Assembly (NCBI RefSeq): GCF_001610895.1
Contig: NZ_CP011273.1
Coordinates: 4,898,001 to 4,962,000, forward strand
Reading direction: 5' to 3'
DNA: 64,000 bases
From: Planctomyces sp. SH-PL62
GTDB taxonomy: Bacteria; Planctomycetota; Planctomycetia; Isosphaerales; Isosphaeraceae
A model generated the notes under the pieces. The model worked only from the letters and a program-made list of their open reading frames with translations, made no database searches and was not told the origin of the DNA. Shown here in pieces: positions 2,802 to 41,677 of this stretch (the first letter of the stretch is position 1; the number at the start of each line of letters is the position of its first letter). A program made the position numbers and the translations under genes.

Positions 2802-3773
2802 TCAGCGTCCCTGAGAGATGCCGAACGGATGGTCGCGGGGAAGGATGACGGAGTCGCGCTCGTGGACCCCGGGCTCCACCTTGCGGGCGTTGTTGAGATA
2901 GACGTCGATGTCGTCGGGGCCGACGTGGCGGGTCGGCAGCCAGCGGACGGCGCCGTCGCTGTAGAGGACGTTCTGGCCGGCGCCGAAGTGGTTGGGGCTG
3001 TTGCGGCCGACGTCGCCCAGGTGGGCGGCGTTGGGGGGCTGATCGGCCACGATCGGGATCATCGAGGCGGGGCGGGCCGATACGGGACCGAGCCGTCCCG
3101 AGGCGTGGCGATAGCCCGGATTGTAGCCGTAGTCCCAGCACACCATCTTCTGGAACTGGGCGGGGTCCTGCTTGCTCAGCGCGTCGGCCTGTTCGAAGGA
3201 TTCCATCCGGCGGGCGTGCTGCAAGTCGCAACGGCCGTTGTAGGGGCAGTCGAGGAGCGAGACGTCGCGGAGGAAACCCCCATCCTGCAAGAGGGCCGCG
3301 AAGAGGCCGCTCTGGGCGTCGCCGCGGTCGTCCGGGGGCGAGGGATACGCCTGATGGGTCGAGACGTACTGCCCCAGGCTGTTGCCGAGCTGCTGGAGGT
3401 TGAAGACGCAGCCCGCCTGATTCATCCGCTCTCGGGAGCGCTGCACGGCCGGCATCAACGTGAGGACGCCGGCGACGAAGATGCTGGCGGCGACGGCGAA
3501 GTCCGCCCAGCGGAACGGGACCCGCATCGGGGCGTAGTCGAGGATCGAGGGTGCGGCGGCCCGATTCTGGGCGACGAAGGAGACGGTTCGGCTCGCAAGG
3601 CCGGGGGGCGGGGCGACGTCATGGCCGTCGTCGAGGAGGCCGTCGATGGCGTGTCGGGCCCGCTGGATCCTGGCCGCGACTTCCGGATCCGCCCGACAGA
3701 CTTCCTCGACGGCTCGTCGCCGCGGGTCGTCGAGCTGGCCGAGAGCGAAATCAAGCAGTTCGTCGGCGTTCAT
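2802..3773 (-). CDS. Membrane-bound anti-sigma-like protein with DUF1559-like C-terminal domain
   Basis: The likely start is MNADELLDFALGQLDDP, four bases after the stop of the ECF sigma gene, giving 323 residues. The N-terminal ~70 residues resemble the cytoplasmic domain of planctomycete anti-sigma factors. One transmembrane helix follows (about residues 90-112, ADFAVAASIFVAGVLTLMP). The exported C-terminal part (Q-A-G-C-V-F-N-L-Q-Q-L-G, then a late N-x5-Q-N-V-L-Y-S-D-G-A-V-R-W) resembles the DUF1559/pseudopilin-like domain that is plentiful in Planctomycetes. Operon position and layout suggest that it holds the sigma factor at the membrane and senses a signal outside; this is inference. 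A longer upstream start would overlap the sigma gene and is less likely. Confidence 0.7.
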   Translation of the reverse strand: MNADELLDFALGQLDDPRRRAVEEVCRADPEVAARIQRARHAIDGLLDDGHDVAPPPGLASRTVSFVAQNRAAAPSILDYAPMRVPFRWADFAVAASIFVAGVLTLMPAVQRSRERMNQAGCVFNLQQLGNSLGQYVSTHQAYPSPPDDRGDAQSGLFAALLQDGGFLRDVSLLDCPYNGRCDLQHARRMESFEQADALSKQDPAQFQKMVCWDYGYNPGYRHASGRLGPVSARPASMIPIVADQPPNAAHLGDVGRNSPNHFGAGQNVLYSDGAVRWLPTRHVGPDDIDVYLNNARKVEPGVHERDSVILPRDHPFGISQGR

Positions 3774-3777
3774 GGCG

Positions 3778-4422
3778 TCAATCTTCTTTCCCGTCCCGCT
3801 TGGCGACCCTGGCCATCTGCTGGAGCTTGGCGAGGGCTGCATGAAGGCGCGATTTCACGGTTCCCACGGGAATCTTGAGGATCTCGGCGATTTCCCGGTA
3901 CTTCAGGTCTTGGTGGTAGGCGAGGATCAGGGTCTGACGCAGGGTGTCGGGCAGGCGTTCCACGCTCTCTCGCACCCACTCCCGACGTTCCTGAGCCTGG
4001 AGATCGGCCAGCGGCCCGGAATCGTCGTTGACGAGCATGTCCAGCAGCGAACCGGCGTCGGACTCCCCCTGCGAGGCGGCCAGGCGCTGGTCCAGGCTCA
4101 CGGTCGGATGCCTCCCCGCCTTCCGGAGCGCGTCGACGGCCTGATGCGTGGCGATCGCATAAAGCCAGGGTCGAAACGGGCGTCCGTCCTCGTACAACCC
4201 ACGCTTGAGGTGGATCTGGAGGAACGTGTTCTGGAACACGTCCTCCGCCATCGACGGGTCGCCCATGTATCGCGCCAGGTAGCGGTAAAGCTCCCGCTCG
4301 TAGCGATGGACCAATTCGTTGTAGACGTCCTCGTCACCGGTTTCGCGATACCGGCGCATCAGTTCCTCGTCCGTTTGATGGGCGAGGCCTTCCGCCGAAT
4401 CCGTGCCGATGACCTTGACCAT
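3778..4422 (-). CDS. ECF-type RNA polymerase sigma factor
   Basis: A 214-residue sigma-70 family protein. Region 2 is seen as HQTDEELMRRYRETGDEDVYN through MGDPSMAEDVFQNTFLQ and RPWLYAIATHQAVDALRK (about residues 15-105), the part that binds the -10 element and core polymerase. Region 4 is VERLPDTLRQTLILAYH followed by YREIAEILKIPVGTVKSRLH, the -35-binding helix-turn-helix. Regions 1.1 and 3 are missing, as expected for ECF factors. It is co-transcribed with the membrane anti-sigma protein that follows four bases later. The ATG at 4422 has no obvious Shine-Dalgarno sequence; an in-frame upstream start at 4527 would add residues unlike the family. Confidence 0.92.
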   Translation of the reverse strand: MVKVIGTDSAEGLAHQTDEELMRRYRETGDEDVYNELVHRYERELYRYLARYMGDPSMAEDVFQNTFLQIHLKRGLYEDGRPFRPWLYAIATHQAVDALRKAGRHPTVSLDQRLAASQGESDAGSLLDMLVNDDSGPLADLQAQERREWVRESVERLPDTLRQTLILAYHQDLKYREIAEILKIPVGTVKSRLHAALAKLQQMARVAKRDGKED

Positions 4423-33555: not shown

Positions 33556-34669
33556 CCGCGATCGACCGCCGGAACCGTTGCAGGCTGAACGCCAGGAACC
33601 CCGCGCCGACCAGCGTGACGACCAGGAAGTCCGGCCAGACCGCCCCGATCCCCGCCCCCCGGTAGATGATCGACTGCGAGAAGGCGACGAAGTGCCGCGA
33701 CGGGAGGAGATACGTGATCCGCTGGAGCGCCTCCGGCTGGCTCTCGACCGGCGTCGAGCCCCCCGAGAGGAGTTGCAGCACGATCAGGATCAGGATGATC
33801 AAAAGCGCGAACTGGGCCATCGTCCGGGCGACGGTCCCCAGGAACACCCCCAGCGCCGTGGCGAAGAACAGGTAGAGGATCACCCCCCCCAGGAACAGCC
33901 ACGGCGACCCCGCGATCGGCACCTGGAGCACCCCCCGGATCACGATCAGCAGGGACGCCCACACCGCCGCGAGGATCACCAGCGCGTTCGACCAGATCTT
34001 GGCCGCGGCGATCTCGAAGGCGGTCAGCGGCATCACCAGCAGGTGTTCGATCGTCCCGTGCTCGCGCTCCCGGATCAGCGCCGCGCCCGTCAGCACCGTG
34101 GTCAGGAGCGTCACCTGATTGATCATGGCGACGATGCTGTTGAACCACGAGGTGTCGCCGTTGGGGTTGAACGCCTTGCGGACGACGAGTCGCGAGGGGT
34201 AGCGGAAATTCGGGTCGGATCGGGACAGGAACTCGGCCACCTGGCCGGAGATGATGTTCTGGATGTAGGACGCGCCGATGCTCGCCTGGAGCATGGCCGT
34301 CGCGTCGACGACGACCAGCACCTCGGCCTGCCGACCCGCCCTCAGGTCCTGCTCATACCGGGGCGGGATCTCGACCACGAACATCAACCGGCCCGAGTCC
34401 ATCGCCTCGTCCACCTCGTCCGAGCGGATCAGGACGGGCTTCTGGAATCGGGGCGGGTAGAACGCCTGGAACAGCTTGCGAGAGAGCGCCGAGCCGTCCT
34501 CGTCGACGAACCCGATCGAGGCGTTGTAGACCTCCGACGAGGTCCCCCGCGCCTGCGTGTAGATCGACGCCGTGAAGGCGTAGATCACGAACAGGACGAG
34601 CACCTTGTCGCTGCGAAGGCTCCGCAGCTCCTTGACGCCGAGCCAGAAGATGTTGGCGAGCGATTCCAC
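33545..34669 (-). CDS. ABC-2 type efflux permease, YhhJ/YbhR-like
   Basis: A 374-residue membrane protein with one N-terminal helix, a large exported domain (about residues 45-175) and five C-terminal helices. The segment TVLTGAALIREREHGTIEHLLVMPL is the conserved coupling region of ABC-2 exporters of the DrrB/YhhJ group. It is the third gene of an operon with HlyD-like and double-ATPase proteins, the same set as E. coli yhiI-rbbA-yhhJ. The complex may export a drug or hydrophobic compound; the substrate is not known. The gap to the upstream gene is 92 bases. Confidence 0.88.
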   Translation of the reverse strand: MESLANIFWLGVKELRSLRSDKVLVLFVIYAFTASIYTQARGTSSEVYNASIGFVDEDGSALSRKLFQAFYPPRFQKPVLIRSDEVDEAMDSGRLMFVVEIPPRYEQDLRAGRQAEVLVVVDATAMLQASIGASYIQNIISGQVAEFLSRSDPNFRYPSRLVVRKAFNPNGDTSWFNSIVAMINQVTLLTTVLTGAALIREREHGTIEHLLVMPLTAFEIAAAKIWSNALVILAAVWASLLIVIRGVLQVPIAGSPWLFLGGVILYLFFATALGVFLGTVARTMAQFALLIILILIVLQLLSGGSTPVESQPEALQRITYLLPSRHFVAFSQSIIYRGAGIGAVWPDFLVVTLVGAGFLAFSLQRFRRSIAVSR

Positions 34670-37554: not shown

Positions 37555-38736
37555 CTAGATCGAGGGTTTCGGTTCCGAGGTCGGAGCCGGTGCCGATGCC
37601 GGCGCCGGTTCCGGAGCCGACGGCTTCGCCTCGGGTCCGCCCTCCTTGGGGGCGTCGACCGGCTTCGGCGGTTCGACCGGGGTCGGTTCCGTCTTGGGCT
37701 TCGGGGCCGGCTCGGGCGCGGTTTTCGCCTTGGCCGCCTCGTCCGCCACGACCTGCGGGAAGCGGCGGTCGAGGTTCGCCGGCCAGGGGGTCGCGGGGTC
37801 GAGCTTGACGTAGCCGACGCCTCGGACGCCCGTCTTGATCTTCTCGATGTAGGGGAGGATCAGCTCCTCCGGGACCTTGAGCTTCACGCGGAACATCAGC
37901 TTGTCGCGCTCGGTTCGGGTCTCCACCTGCTTGGGGGTGAACTGGGCCTCCGGGGAGACGAAGGTGACGTTGGCCCGCGCCGAGTAGTCCGGGTAGGCGT
38001 CGAGCCTGATCCGCGCCTCGGCCCCGATCTCGATCCGCGCAGCCTCGTCCGAGGGGAGGAAGATCTCCATGTAGACGTCGTCGAGGTTGACGAGGGTCAA
38101 GACCTTGCCCCCCGCCCCGAGGACTTCGCGCTCTTGCGCCAGTCGATAGAGGACGCGGCCGTTGACGGGGGAGAGGAGCGTGGAATCGGCGAGCTTGGCG
38201 CGAACGTCCTGGAGATCGGCCGTGGCGGCCTCGATCGTCCGCATGTTCACCTGCAGCTTGGCCTTCACCGAGTCGACCGCGGCGACGCTGATGTCGCGCT
38301 TGGTCTGCGACTTCTCCATCTCCTCGCGTGAAACGACGCGACGGCTGAAAAGCTCCCGGTTGCGGGCGAACTCCTGGTTCTGATAGCGGACGATGGCCTC
38401 CCGCTCCACGATTTCGGCCTTGATCTGGTTCTCGTTCTCCTGGGCCTCGGCGATCTTGGCCTTGCCGCTCGCCAGCTTGGCCTCCAGCTCGTCCGTGTCC
38501 ATCTGGGCGAGGACCTGGCCCTTGCGGACCAGGTCGCCCTCCTCGGCGAAGATCCGGACGACGCGACCGGGGTACTTGGCCGACACGTCCACCTGGACCG
38601 ATTCGACGCGGCCGTTCCCCGAGACGATGCCCGCCGGCAGCTTCTTCCGGAGCTGCGCCTGGTAGGCGTACCAGGCCGCCGTCCCGACCGCGACCAGGGC
38701 CGCCACGATCAGCGTTCGAACCAGCATCCTACGCAT
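37555..38736 (-). CDS. HlyD-family membrane fusion protein (periplasmic adaptor)
   Basis: A 393-residue adaptor and first gene of the exporter operon, 30 bases before the double-ATPase gene. One N-terminal membrane anchor (residues 7-25) is followed by the first half of a lipoyl domain (YPGRVVRIFAEEGDLVRKGQVLAQMDTDEL). A coiled-coil hairpin (about 75-180) and the second lipoyl half (STLLSPVNGRVLYR) come next, then a beta-barrel. The last ~60 residues are Pro/Ala/Lys/Glu-rich and unusual for the family. It should link the inner-membrane exporter to an outer-membrane channel, which is not encoded here. Confidence 0.92.
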   Translation of the reverse strand: MRRMLVRTLIVAALVAVGTAAWYAYQAQLRKKLPAGIVSGNGRVESVQVDVSAKYPGRVVRIFAEEGDLVRKGQVLAQMDTDELEAKLASGKAKIAEAQENENQIKAEIVEREAIVRYQNQEFARNRELFSRRVVSREEMEKSQTKRDISVAAVDSVKAKLQVNMRTIEAATADLQDVRAKLADSTLLSPVNGRVLYRLAQEREVLGAGGKVLTLVNLDDVYMEIFLPSDEAARIEIGAEARIRLDAYPDYSARANVTFVSPEAQFTPKQVETRTERDKLMFRVKLKVPEELILPYIEKIKTGVRGVGYVKLDPATPWPANLDRRFPQVVADEAAKAKTAPEPAPKPKTEPTPVEPPKPVDAPKEGGPEAKPSAPEPAPASAPAPTSEPKPSI

Positions 38737-39721
38737 GAGCGACCTTCATCCCGTCTGTCGGCAGGCCGACGTCGATTCGACGTCCCACGGCGAGTGGACC
38801 CGACCACCCGCCACGCCCGACGTCCGGACGAGTCGACCTTGAATTGTGCAACCGCGCCTTGAAAATCGCAACCGCCCCGCCGCCCGTCCCGGAGGCGCGC
38901 CGAAGGCTGTCGACGTCCCACCCAGGGCCGATCCGAGGGAGTTCTCGCTAATCGGCGGATCGGTCGTAATGTCAAGGAAGGGAGGCGTGCGCGCACGCCG
39001 CCGACGCTCCTTGGCAATTCGCCGTTTCGTGACCGCCCGAGAGTCCGCCCTCGGGCGCGGCACTCCCCGACCATTGAAAATCCGCCGAACGAACCCAATC
39101 TACTCCACCGTACTCCCCGTTTCCAAAACTCGGCCCGGAATTTCGGCCCGTCGAGAATCGAGGCGCGATCAAACCCAATCGATCCTGGGTCGACGTGCGG
39201 ACCCGCCGGGGAGACGGCGTCCACGCGATCGCCCCGAAACGCGCGACGAGAGACCCGAATCCGCCGAACGAAGCCAATCGACCAAATCCCGAAAGCCTCT
39301 TGCCACAAACAGTTTCCGCCGAATAATGGGCCGATTCCGACTTGCAATCGAACCCATTCCGTCGTCGACGGCCGTCGACGACGGGGGCGGGAATCGTCGC
39401 AAAACCGGACCGGACGCAGGGAGGAGGCCCGCCGACGAAAACGACCGAACGAACCCAATCGCCGGCCCCCGCGAGGGCCTGGTAACCGGGACTCCACGAG
39501 TCCCGACAGGAGGCGCCGCACCGAAAACGAACCCAATCGAAGCCAGACGTCGGGATCGCGGGGGAGCCGGGGGGCGATTCCGGCTTCTCGACCTGACATT
39601 GACCGCGACCGGGCCGCCGGGCATGATCCGCCTTCCGGGACCGGCGAGTCCGCCCCGGTGCAACGGTCGCCGGCTTGCCGCCCGAATAGAGCCGCCGCAG
39701 GGGTCGAGGGAGTGACCCGAC
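38737..39721. repeat. Gene-free region with six spaced CCGAACGAACCCAATCG-like repeats
   Basis: About 985 bases between two divergent genes. Imperfect copies of a short repeat, all in the same direction, occur at about 39082-39100, 39167-39181, 39258-39280, 39346-39361, 39445-39461 and 39524-39540. The best copies read CCGAACGAACCCAATC, and the core AACCCAATC is exact in four. Start-to-start distances are about 85, 91, 88, 99 and 79 bases. A 22-base palindrome lies at 39361-39382. Open frames crossing the region are low-complexity and Arg-rich, and I regard them as chance. There are no cas genes and the repeats are too short for CRISPR. Confidence 0.65.
39361..39382. repeat. 22-base perfect palindrome
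   Basis: GTCGTCGACGG followed directly by its complement CCGTCGACGAC. It begins at the end of the fourth copy of the spaced repeat. It could bind a dimeric protein or form a cruciform; nothing else indicates its use. Confidence 0.6.
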
Positions 39722-41677
39722 ATGTCGATCGCCCATCTCGTTCTGACGGCTTCCACGCTCTTGGGATGGTCGGACATCACGATCCAGGCCGCTCGCGGAG
39801 ATCGCGGGCTCACCGCGTTCCAGCAGAGCGTCGCCGGGATTGACCGGCCCAGCCCTCGTACGCTGGAAACCCTCCGCCGCTATGACCTTGAGAAACGCTA
39901 CCGGAAGGACGTCGAGCACACGCTCCTCAGCCTGGAGAAGCTCGCCCGCGCCCAGCCCAGCGCCGAGATCGTCTACGCCCTGGCCGAGCTCTCCTGGCTC
40001 GACGGCTGCAAGAACGACCGCTGGCGCAAGGCCGTGGCCGTGGGACGCTACCAGGACGCCGTCGCCTACGCGTACGACTACCTGTTCGACCCCGAACTGG
40101 CCGGCGGCCGGGCCCCCGCCGACCCCCGCTACCGGCTCGCCTGCGAGATCTACAACGCGGGCCTCGAACGGATCATCCGGGCCGCCCAGTCCAAGAACCC
40201 GATCGACCCTCAGGGCAAGATCAAGCTGAAGGCCGGCGACCGCGAGCAGGAGTTGCAGGTCTCGCTCCGAGACTCCCCCTGGAAGGCCGCGGACATCCAC
40301 AAACTCCTGCCCACCAGCGACTACGAGGTCGGCGGCCTGGCGACCAGCCGGAACCAGTACGGCATCGGCGTCCCCTTGATCGCGGTCCGCGAGAGCGACC
40401 CGAAGCAGGCCGACCGCCCGGCGAACGAGCAGTTCTATCCGGCCGAGATGGCCTTCCCCTTGACGGCGTTCCTCGTCCCCGACTCGCGACTCCGCGAGCC
40501 CGGCGAGGCCGTCGATCAGGTCCGCCAGTGCACCCTCCAGCTCGTCGACCCGATCCAGTACCAGGTCGTCGGCGAGCCCGGAAACCAGATCGCGCTGGAG
40601 ATCGACCTGACCACCCCGCTGGCCTACATGTGGTCCAACACCGACCTGGAACGCTTCCGCTGGTCGGGCTTGATTCGTCCCGAGCAACTCCTGGAGCGGG
40701 CCAACCTCCTGATGATCCGCCCCTATGAGCCGGGCAAGATCCCGGTCGTCATGGTCCACGGCCTCATCAGCAGCCCGCTCGCCTGGATCCCCATGCTGAA
40801 CGAGCTTCAGCGCGACCCGGACATCCGGGACCGCTACCAGTTCTTCCTCTACATGTACCCCACCGGCGTCCCCCTGCCGATCGCCGCGGCCAATCTCCGC
40901 GACGCCCTGGCGCAAGCCAAGGCGACCTACGACCCCGACGGCCGCGACCCGGCCTTCGACCGCATGGTCCTCCTCGGACACTCGATGGGCGGGCTGCTCA
41001 GCCACTGCATGGTCGTCTCCAGCGGCGAACAACTCTGGCAGCTCAACTCCGACCAGACCTTCGACGACATCCTCGGGCCGCCCGACGTCCTCGCCCAGCT
41101 CCGCAAGCTCCTCTTCTTCGAGCCCCTGCCGTTCGTCAAACGGGTCGTCTTCCTGGCCACTCCCCACCGGGGCTCGGACCTCTCGCGGAGCGTGATCGGC
41201 CGGGTCAGCACGAACCTGATCTCGGACCCGGACTACATCCACAAGCTCCTCAGCCAGCTTGTGAAGGACAACCCGGACGCCTTCAACCGCCGCTTCCGAC
41301 GGTTCCCATCCAGCATCGAGACCCTGGCGACCGACTCCCCCATCCTGATGGCGATCCTCGACATGCAGCCGGCCGCCGGCGTCGTCTTCCACTCCATCAT
41401 CGGCTCGATCCGGCCCGACGACCGCCGCCAGACCACCGACGGCGTCGTCCCCTATCGCAGCTCCCACCTGGAAGGGGCGGCCTCCGAGAAGATCGTCCGG
41501 TCCGACCACGGCGTCCAGAAAGACGCCCTGGCGATCCGCGAGGTCCGGCGGATTCTTCAGGAGCACCTGGGCCTCGCGGACCCCGCCGACTCCCGCGACC
41601 CGGCCGAACCGCCGGCCGTCGCCTCCCCGGCCTCGGCCGCGGACGCCCTCTCGGATCTCCCCGCCCTGCCCCGCTGA
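39722..41677 (+). CDS. Alpha/beta hydrolase, lipase-like
   Basis: A 651-residue protein. The hydrolase domain lies in the C-terminal half. IPVVMVHGLISSPLAW forms the oxyanion-hole strand, VLLGHSMGGLLSH carries the nucleophile Ser (about residue 424), and the C-terminal IVRSDHGVQ supplies the catalytic His. The long N-terminal half (about 1-330) has helical, TPR-like character at its start and no motif I know. The overall layout is like planctomycete esterase/lipases of unknown substrate. No clear signal peptide is seen, although the first ~20 residues are mildly hydrophobic. It stands alone downstream of the repeat region. Confidence 0.85.
   Translation: MSIAHLVLTASTLLGWSDITIQAARGDRGLTAFQQSVAGIDRPSPRTLETLRRYDLEKRYRKDVEHTLLSLEKLARAQPSAEIVYALAELSWLDGCKNDRWRKAVAVGRYQDAVAYAYDYLFDPELAGGRAPADPRYRLACEIYNAGLERIIRAAQSKNPIDPQGKIKLKAGDREQELQVSLRDSPWKAADIHKLLPTSDYEVGGLATSRNQYGIGVPLIAVRESDPKQADRPANEQFYPAEMAFPLTAFLVPDSRLREPGEAVDQVRQCTLQLVDPIQYQVVGEPGNQIALEIDLTTPLAYMWSNTDLERFRWSGLIRPEQLLERANLLMIRPYEPGKIPVVMVHGLISSPLAWIPMLNELQRDPDIRDRYQFFLYMYPTGVPLPIAAANLRDALAQAKATYDPDGRDPAFDRMVLLGHSMGGLLSHCMVVSSGEQLWQLNSDQTFDDILGPPDVLAQLRKLLFFEPLPFVKRVVFLATPHRGSDLSRSVIGRVSTNLISDPDYIHKLLSQLVKDNPDAFNRRFRRFPSSIETLATDSPILMAILDMQPAAGVVFHSIIGSIRPDDRRQTTDGVVPYRSSHLEGAASEKIVRSDHGVQKDALAIREVRRILQEHLGLADPADSRDPAEPPAVASPASAADALSDLPALPR

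Follow-up and report, generated by a model that had tools for sequence, protein, structure and literature searches.

Helically phased arrays of a short motif at near-regular intervals along Paludisphaera chromosomes: putative sites of a chromosome-organising protein

What are six copies of one short sequence doing in a spacer that holds no gene? The window analysed here, a 64-kb stretch of SH-PL62 DNA, contains a 985-bp spacer between two divergent genes (37555-38736 on the - strand and 39722-41677 on the + strand). A gene caller trained on SH-PL62 finds no gene in this window spacer, in agreement with the gene-free region that a sequence-only reading of this DNA had proposed. CGAACGAASCCAAT (motif A, in which S is C or G) occurs there in six copies, all on the + strand, from 39086 to 39539. 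The features are given below; mismatches are scored against the 14-bp core, with C or G allowed at position 9, and the window box B was aligned by eye alongside the orthologs of P. soli, P. borealis and G005.

38738..39721, no strand: gene-free spacer holding the entire array (open reading frame list and gene caller trained on SH-PL62)
38944..38995, + strand: box B, a promoter-like head of the array (family motif; window copy aligned by eye), with a -35-like CTCGCT at 38944-38949, a -10-like TAATGT at 38967-38972 and then GGGAGGCGTGCGCGC
39075..39085, + strand: GAAAANCGC-like box (TGAAAATCCGC), immediately 5′ of A site 1 (family consensus gAAAa.CGC)
39086..39101, + strand: A site 1, 14-mer core exact
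39166..39181, + strand: A site 2, 2/14 mismatches, 80 bp from site 1
39265..39280, + strand: A site 3, core exact in the G form, 99 bp from site 2
39345..39360, + strand: A site 4, weak, 3/14 mismatches, 80 bp from site 3
39446..39461, + strand: A site 5, core exact, 101 bp from site 4
39524..39539, + strand: A site 6, 2/14 mismatches, 78 bp from site 5

The start-to-start spacings are thus 80, 99, 80, 101 and 78 bp. The near-even spacing that had been claimed stands, but its upper limit does not: the copies had been placed 79-99 bp apart, and the real range is 78-101 bp. As that reading had said, the intervening sequences are not alike. The six copies are real and far above dinucleotide shuffles. 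With up to one mismatch, CGAACCCAATCG has six matches across the 64-kb window, one at 34507 and the other five within the array, against a dinucleotide-shuffle mean of 0.66, and six matches were reached in none of 100 shuffles; the 17-mer, with up to three mismatches, has five matches against 0.35 expected, and again none of 100 shuffles gave as many. Strict patterns recover only five copies of the array, site 4 being weak. No opposite-strand site was found in the array at up to three mismatches, and the whole is a degenerate form, a head with six direct A sites, scoring 21.5 bits for the module. By eye, a sub-motif like CGCTCCTTGGCAATTCG lies at 39006-39023; several elements have it too, in the stretch from box B to the first A. 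A sigma-70-like match (10/12, TTGCCA-16-AATAAT) is found at 39300-39327, in the AT-richer part of the array.

Is the array peculiar to this spacer? The profile scan that had been suggested was run on the SH-PL62 genome (6,784,659 bases in five contigs, with a chromosome of 6,507,102 bases) and on its relatives, and the suspicion of a dispersed repeat family of this lineage was borne out. The 16-mer, with up to three mismatches, has 327 matches in the whole genome against 12 for the reversed pattern, which is not the random background rate that the sequence-only reading had named as the alternative. The exact 14-mer occurs 124 times in SH-PL62, 117 times in P. borealis and 202 times in P. soli, with no reversed-pattern match in any of them. 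A model built from 28 copies gives 140 matches in SH-PL62 among the best 150 of 3466 candidates, a number that serves as a guide only since a few are reverse readings of one element. Model matches number 50-141 in each of six Paludisphaera genomes, and 20 of the family's 45 genomes have at least one; 16 of those 45 contain the exact 14-mer, with up to 69 copies in other genera and one control match overall. Two genomes of the same genus, G001 and G004, have no exact 14-mer; therefore, the motif drifts within the genus.

The matches listed in G007, which belongs to a different genus of the family, include the variant CGAGCGAAGCCAATCG at ten places; this suggests that the motif has drifted there. 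Tight tandem arrays of the 14-mer are seen in other genera (G029:C1:3705940-3706073, G037:C196 and G033:C1153), with units of 24, ~32, 42, 54, 65 and 87 bp. Among named genomes, in a search that may leave out records near SH-PL62, a gapped three-part pattern had no match; a second gapped pattern, under the same restriction, had ten places, all in P. soli JC670. A literature search, with most subscription papers outside its coverage and with PMC5352709 included, returned no published description of the family.

The commonest form of the element in SH-PL62 is a 106-bp module, A-64-A′-26-A, in which A′ is A reversed and complemented. It runs from GAAAANCGC-A through an AT-rich loop of 48 bp to A′ at +64 and, after a further ~10 bp, to a second A at +90. 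The loop reaches 63% AT in surroundings of 69.2% GC (1.13 Mb, ~17% of the genome). A′ is recognisable in 75 of 133-135 elements in SH-PL62 and in 70 of 84 in P. soli; the offset from A to A′ is 64 in 68, 65 in 25 and 63 in 9 of 133 elements. In P. borealis, 16 of 17 sampled segments have no opposite-strand site and consist of direct A sites only; these arrays comprise 82 A sites, four of them inside called genes.

Box B measures about 50 bp and has an invariant A and T four bases apart. In SH-PL62, it stands 5′ of 72 out of 96 first units but of none of 39 later ones, and its -10-like part lies 88-93 bp 5′ of the first A in 28 of those 72 cases. The corresponding counts in P. soli are 33 of 60 and 0 of 23. 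Conversely, an element follows 47 of 49 strong box B matches in the 1.13 Mb sampled. We infer that box B is a promoter-like head of the array.

Where do the elements lie relative to genes? The placement set consists of 141 non-overlapping elements, 137 of them scoring at least 25 bits, obtained with the trained gene caller and an iterated HMM in 1.13 Mb of element-centred DNA. The elements are intergenic, overlap with a called gene exceeding 30 bp in only 2 of 137, and within arrays they have a single orientation, adjacent pairs pointing one way in 41 of 41 cases. Spacers are convergent for 43 of the 137, tandem for 71 and divergent for 23, and the tandem elements show no preference between the two orientations (39 vs 32). 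In this sample, which is centred on elements, 31 of 59 convergent, 50 of 230 tandem and 14 of 119 divergent spacers are occupied. For 60 clusters, the gene on the 3′ side has its end towards the cluster, and in 37 of these its stop codon lies within 22 bp. On the 5′ side, the neighbouring stop codon is at least 110 bp away in 54 of 55 clusters, which leaves room for box B. For the two arrays on the P. borealis plasmid PALBO1 (648-740 and 50203-50455), the incomplete gene table of PLSDB has no CDS over them.

Are the elements kept during evolution, and which part of them? SH-PL62 was compared with P. soli through element-centred DNA, 1.13 Mb of the former and 1.15 Mb (14%) of the latter. Both flanks were found in the sampled P. 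soli DNA for 49 of 137 elements, and 47 of these 49 have an element in the same spacer; the reverse check gave 35 of 36. Since the samples are element-centred, both shares are inflated. Of the two misses, one is matched by P. soli elements in the adjoining spacer; for the other, the nearest are several kb off. Given two misses and 14% of P. soli sampled, we estimate that roughly 85-90% of elements would be common to both species. In 69 of 71 pairings the elements agree in relative orientation; the pairings are all combinations per spacer and so are not independent.

The orthologous positions thus persist, and within them the motif is what is conserved. In an ungapped comparison of 35 one-to-one SH-PL62/P. 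soli pairs, the identity of A5 reaches 0.93, loop columns are at 0.41 and 0.33 against 0.36 and 0.31 in shuffled pairs, and far-upstream columns are at 0.26 against 0.28, while flanking DNA is 73-92% identical; the ungapped comparison depresses distant columns, and some pairs are visibly alignable still. The median loop identity to the nearest paralog is 0.53 against 0.51 after column shuffling in SH-PL62, and 0.56 against 0.56 in P. soli. In SH-PL62, the upper end of the distribution exceeds chance (90th percentile 0.63 vs 0.55; maximum 0.84 vs 0.58), so some copies may be duplicates, and this excess is almost absent from P. soli (maximum 0.70 vs 0.67). With the motif conserved, the loops near-saturated and the paralogs at chance, we conclude that the majority of copies are ancient and that selection for the motif maintains them. 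That the phased sites are under selection is well supported. The window locus itself has orthologs in the same spacer and orientation, with two good sites in P. soli, five in P. borealis, four weaker A sites (1-3 mismatches) in G005 and two in G004, near a contig edge; the orthologous spacer in G001 has no A site.

A 289-aa open reading frame at 38846-39715 reads TNPI and is passed over by the trained gene caller, which fits the spurious proteins of this kind that the sequence-only reading mentions. Since motif offsets vary by 1 bp and the loops are near-saturated, there is no conserved reading frame; together with the lack of any called gene in the window spacer, this disposes of the conserved coding gene that had been raised as a counter-explanation. 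Nor, as judged by sequence, is the array likely to be a simple tandem repeat or a CRISPR, as had been said already: its 14-bp sites are degenerate and 78-101 bp apart, and the family forms 93-100 dispersed clusters.

How are these clusters distributed? The SH-PL62 chromosome has 93 of them when model matches are used and 100 when all listed pattern places are added. They are under-dispersed: the coefficient of variation of the gaps is 0.59-0.60 against 0.94 expected, and none of 5000 null sets is as even. Gaps below 20 kb number 5-6 where 21-24 are expected, the median gap is 57-59 kb, 39-47 gaps fall within 40-70 kb, and the largest is 225 kb, so that there is no large empty region. P. borealis, with 82 clusters, behaves likewise (CV 0.67 vs 0.95, p 0.0002; median gap 73 kb; one gap below 20 kb vs 14 expected). 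These lists hold the best 150 of ~3400-4400 model candidates and the first 100 pattern places listed, so they miss some clusters. G001, where detection is poorer, shows the same trend short of significance (C2, p 0.09; C1, p 0.25). Secondary replicons carry arrays too, namely C2 and C4 in SH-PL62 and the 112-kb PALBO1, whose two arrays are ~50 kb apart. By chromosome half, the halves being set without a located origin, strands are balanced (25/28 and 22/18 clusters); on this ground, a KOPS-like polar signal was rejected.

Within the arrays, the spacing follows a second rule. Same-strand distances from A to A form a ladder at ~45, 57, 68, 80, 90, 101, 112 and 124 bp. The best period of the pooled distances is 11.2 bp (R 0.46, n=157), the dominant 85-95 class being excluded in two species. 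P. borealis alone, with duplicated loci removed, gives 11.25 bp (R 0.48, n=65) and exceeds all 2000 jittered sets; SH-PL62, with each distinct spacing counted once, gives R 0.47, and the ladder of P. soli is weaker (p 0.03). Distances from box B to A above 97 bp are also phased with two species pooled (<0.001), P. soli alone falling short of significance (p 0.09). In other genera, the ladder has a shorter step than the 11.2 bp of Paludisphaera, 10.35-10.4 bp (p 0.01, 36 spacing classes); it includes only 14-mer places among matches listed with a neighbour, and tandem expansions are among them. Fits to E. coli lac loop repression data reported in PMC1762422 give an in-vivo helical repeat of 11.08-11.60 bp/turn. 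The genus ladder is near this value, so the A sites would share one face of the DNA, which suggests that proteins sit along a single side of supercoiled DNA. The period of A-form RNA is also near 11 bp, as is that of supercoiled DNA.

What, then, are the arrays for? Our tentative answer, held with a little less than even confidence, is that the ~100 arrays in Paludisphaera are putative binding-site arrays for a chromosome-organising protein, placed at near-regular intervals. Among the three options that the sequence-only reading had offered, a putative multi-site binding array is the best supported, through the helical phasing. The putative protein would occupy neighbouring A sites along the same helical face, and A′ with A, where A′ is present, would be an inverted pair of sites. 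Bound arrays may then play an architectural role as distributed anchors or boundaries, in the form of loop or domain boundaries or in segregation. Box B, found only at the array head, could serve local transcription or the binding of a partner protein. It is tempting to go one step further, and somewhat more cautiously still, and to propose a previously undescribed chromosome-wide system of the Isosphaeraceae, in which ~100 quasi-periodic phased arrays act as anchors (domain boundaries or a dispersed centromere) and selection keeps site and position while the rest of the element turns over.

Could each array instead be a non-coding RNA gene, with box B as promoter, A5 as an RNA motif, A′ and A3 as a 3′ hairpin and tandem modules co-transcribed? 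Such a gene would account for the restriction of box B to first units and its invariant A and T, spaced as in a -10 element, for the distance of at least 110 bp from a stop codon on the 5′ side (54/55 clusters) with 3′ ends abutting stop codons, and for the uniform direction of adjacent copies (41/41). In SH-PL62, moreover, A′-A3 pairs number 860 against 818 ± 8.6 when permuted (75/135 elements, those in which A′ can be recognised), and the region of the 3′ hairpin folds more stably than shuffled sequence (mean z -1.8, and -2.2 in P. soli). This pairing beyond chance would be explained as well by an RNA as by a cruciform, and complementarity between A′ and A3 could also arise by template-switch repair of close quasi-palindromes. 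However, P. soli has no A′-A3 covariation (752 vs 747 ± 6.8; 70/84 elements), whole predicted transcripts have mean z of only -0.6 and -0.7 with both strands alike, and A′ is absent from 16 of 17 sampled P. borealis segments. A search of Rfam with the window spacer and 16 loci gave no match near the gathering score, and a family of small RNAs should give neither helical phasing nor even spacing along the chromosome. The short RNA elements of the sequence-only reading thus keep the promoter-like head, but strand-specific structure and a fold beyond the 3′ hairpin do not hold, and we judge an RNA gene unlikely, if still worth bearing in mind. When the asymmetry of GT vs AC pairs was used as a strand test, permuted values were about those observed. 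An attenuator-like switch was rejected, as the A5:A′ hairpin has no covariation (z -0.3, 75/133 elements).

Three further explanations were weighed. Phased multi-site arrays, some of them in divergent spacers such as that of the window, at loci kept between species, are what operators of adjacent genes would look like, in an ordinary regulon of one transcription factor. Yet divergent spacers hold just 23 of 137 elements and convergent ones 43, 3′ ends are often at stop codons, tandem orientations are balanced (39 vs 32), and the spacing along the chromosome is near-regular, so that we see only a small chance for a regulon. A mobile or once-mobile repeat (a MITE, or a REP/BIME-like element) that spread through the genome would explain the many intergenic copies near gene ends, the partial palindrome, the tandem copy numbers that vary between species and the paralog tail above chance. 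Typical copies, however, are not recent, their median paralog loop identity being at chance; orthologous positions are kept with the motif alone conserved, no Y1 transposase domain was found in the genome, and transposition would not produce even spacing. We therefore find a mobile origin improbable. The enrichment in convergent spacers (31/59 occupied in the element-centred sample) and the ends near stop codons would also suit a transcription terminator or insulator between genes. Against this, 23 of 137 elements are in divergent spacers, where there is no 3′ end, no terminator-like site was found in the window spacer, and the direct-motif arrays of P. borealis have no hairpins; to a terminator we attach the slightest probability.

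The reading as chromosome-organising sites has precedents. MatP with its matS sites is a case of dispersed chromosomal sites read by one protein for a chromosome-scale task. The arrays may resemble the Noc, SlmA and MatP systems in their many dispersed short sites, and Noc and SlmA would be their nearest functional analogues. PMC4726725 describes ~70 NBS with a 14-bp consensus (Noc) and 24-52 SBS (SlmA), both palindromic and under-represented near Ter. Unlike these, the A core is asymmetric, and there are phased multi-site arrays, a head element and no large empty region (ori and ter not being located); the A core is thus not a palindromic site, but many SH-PL62 modules do hold an inverted A′-A pair. 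Iteron and DnaA-box arrays and plasmid centromeres would be similar, as direct repeats of an asymmetric site beside AT-rich DNA, but there are one or few of them per replicon, whereas here there are ~100 chromosomal arrays.

REP/BIME elements are similar in other respects, being intergenic, partly palindromic and present in over 100 copies per genome, with a suggested chromosome-organising role (PMC2817692, PMC6907758); REP palindromes carry GT(A/G)G heads (PMC2817692), and BIMEs are discussed as supercoil barriers (PMC6907758). The arrays share the intergenic copy number above 100 and the partial palindromes but have no GT(A/G)G head; no Y1 transposase was found in the genome, their adjacent pairs are direct in 41 of 41 cases, and the palindrome is absent in sampled P. 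borealis. A REP/RAYT origin was rejected on these grounds, the lack of alternating orientation included: PF01797 (RAYT Y1, IS200/IS605-like) has no match in SH-PL62, while the control matched in 5 of 14 known genomes. In E. coli, the repeat-encoded RNA naRNA4/REP325 is proposed to join DNA segments (PMC6907758); the phasing of the arrays points to DNA.

E. coli topological domains measure 10-400 kb, and it is not settled what their barriers are (PMC6907758). If our reading is true, there is in these bacteria a sequence-defined, helically phased mark every ~60-70 kb, which makes loop or domain boundaries directly testable, and the motif is a handle for finding the binding protein. The lineage sits in a phylum with unusual cell biology, and its chromosome organisation is little known. 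For annotators, there is a warning: open frames across arrays are not genes.

Other repeats accompany the arrays. A second intergenic repeat, in stretches of ~50-130 bp that are mostly 80-97% identical across copies and species, occurs near arrays, often within a few hundred bases of them (L065 1333-1402, L064 1162-1290, L057 1879-2011), and also at the relatives' loci L095, L121 and L143. In addition, a repeat of ~140 bp near arrays, 85% identical between SH-PL62 and P. soli, is seen at L066 1664-1802, L077 1283-1422 and L147 734-873.
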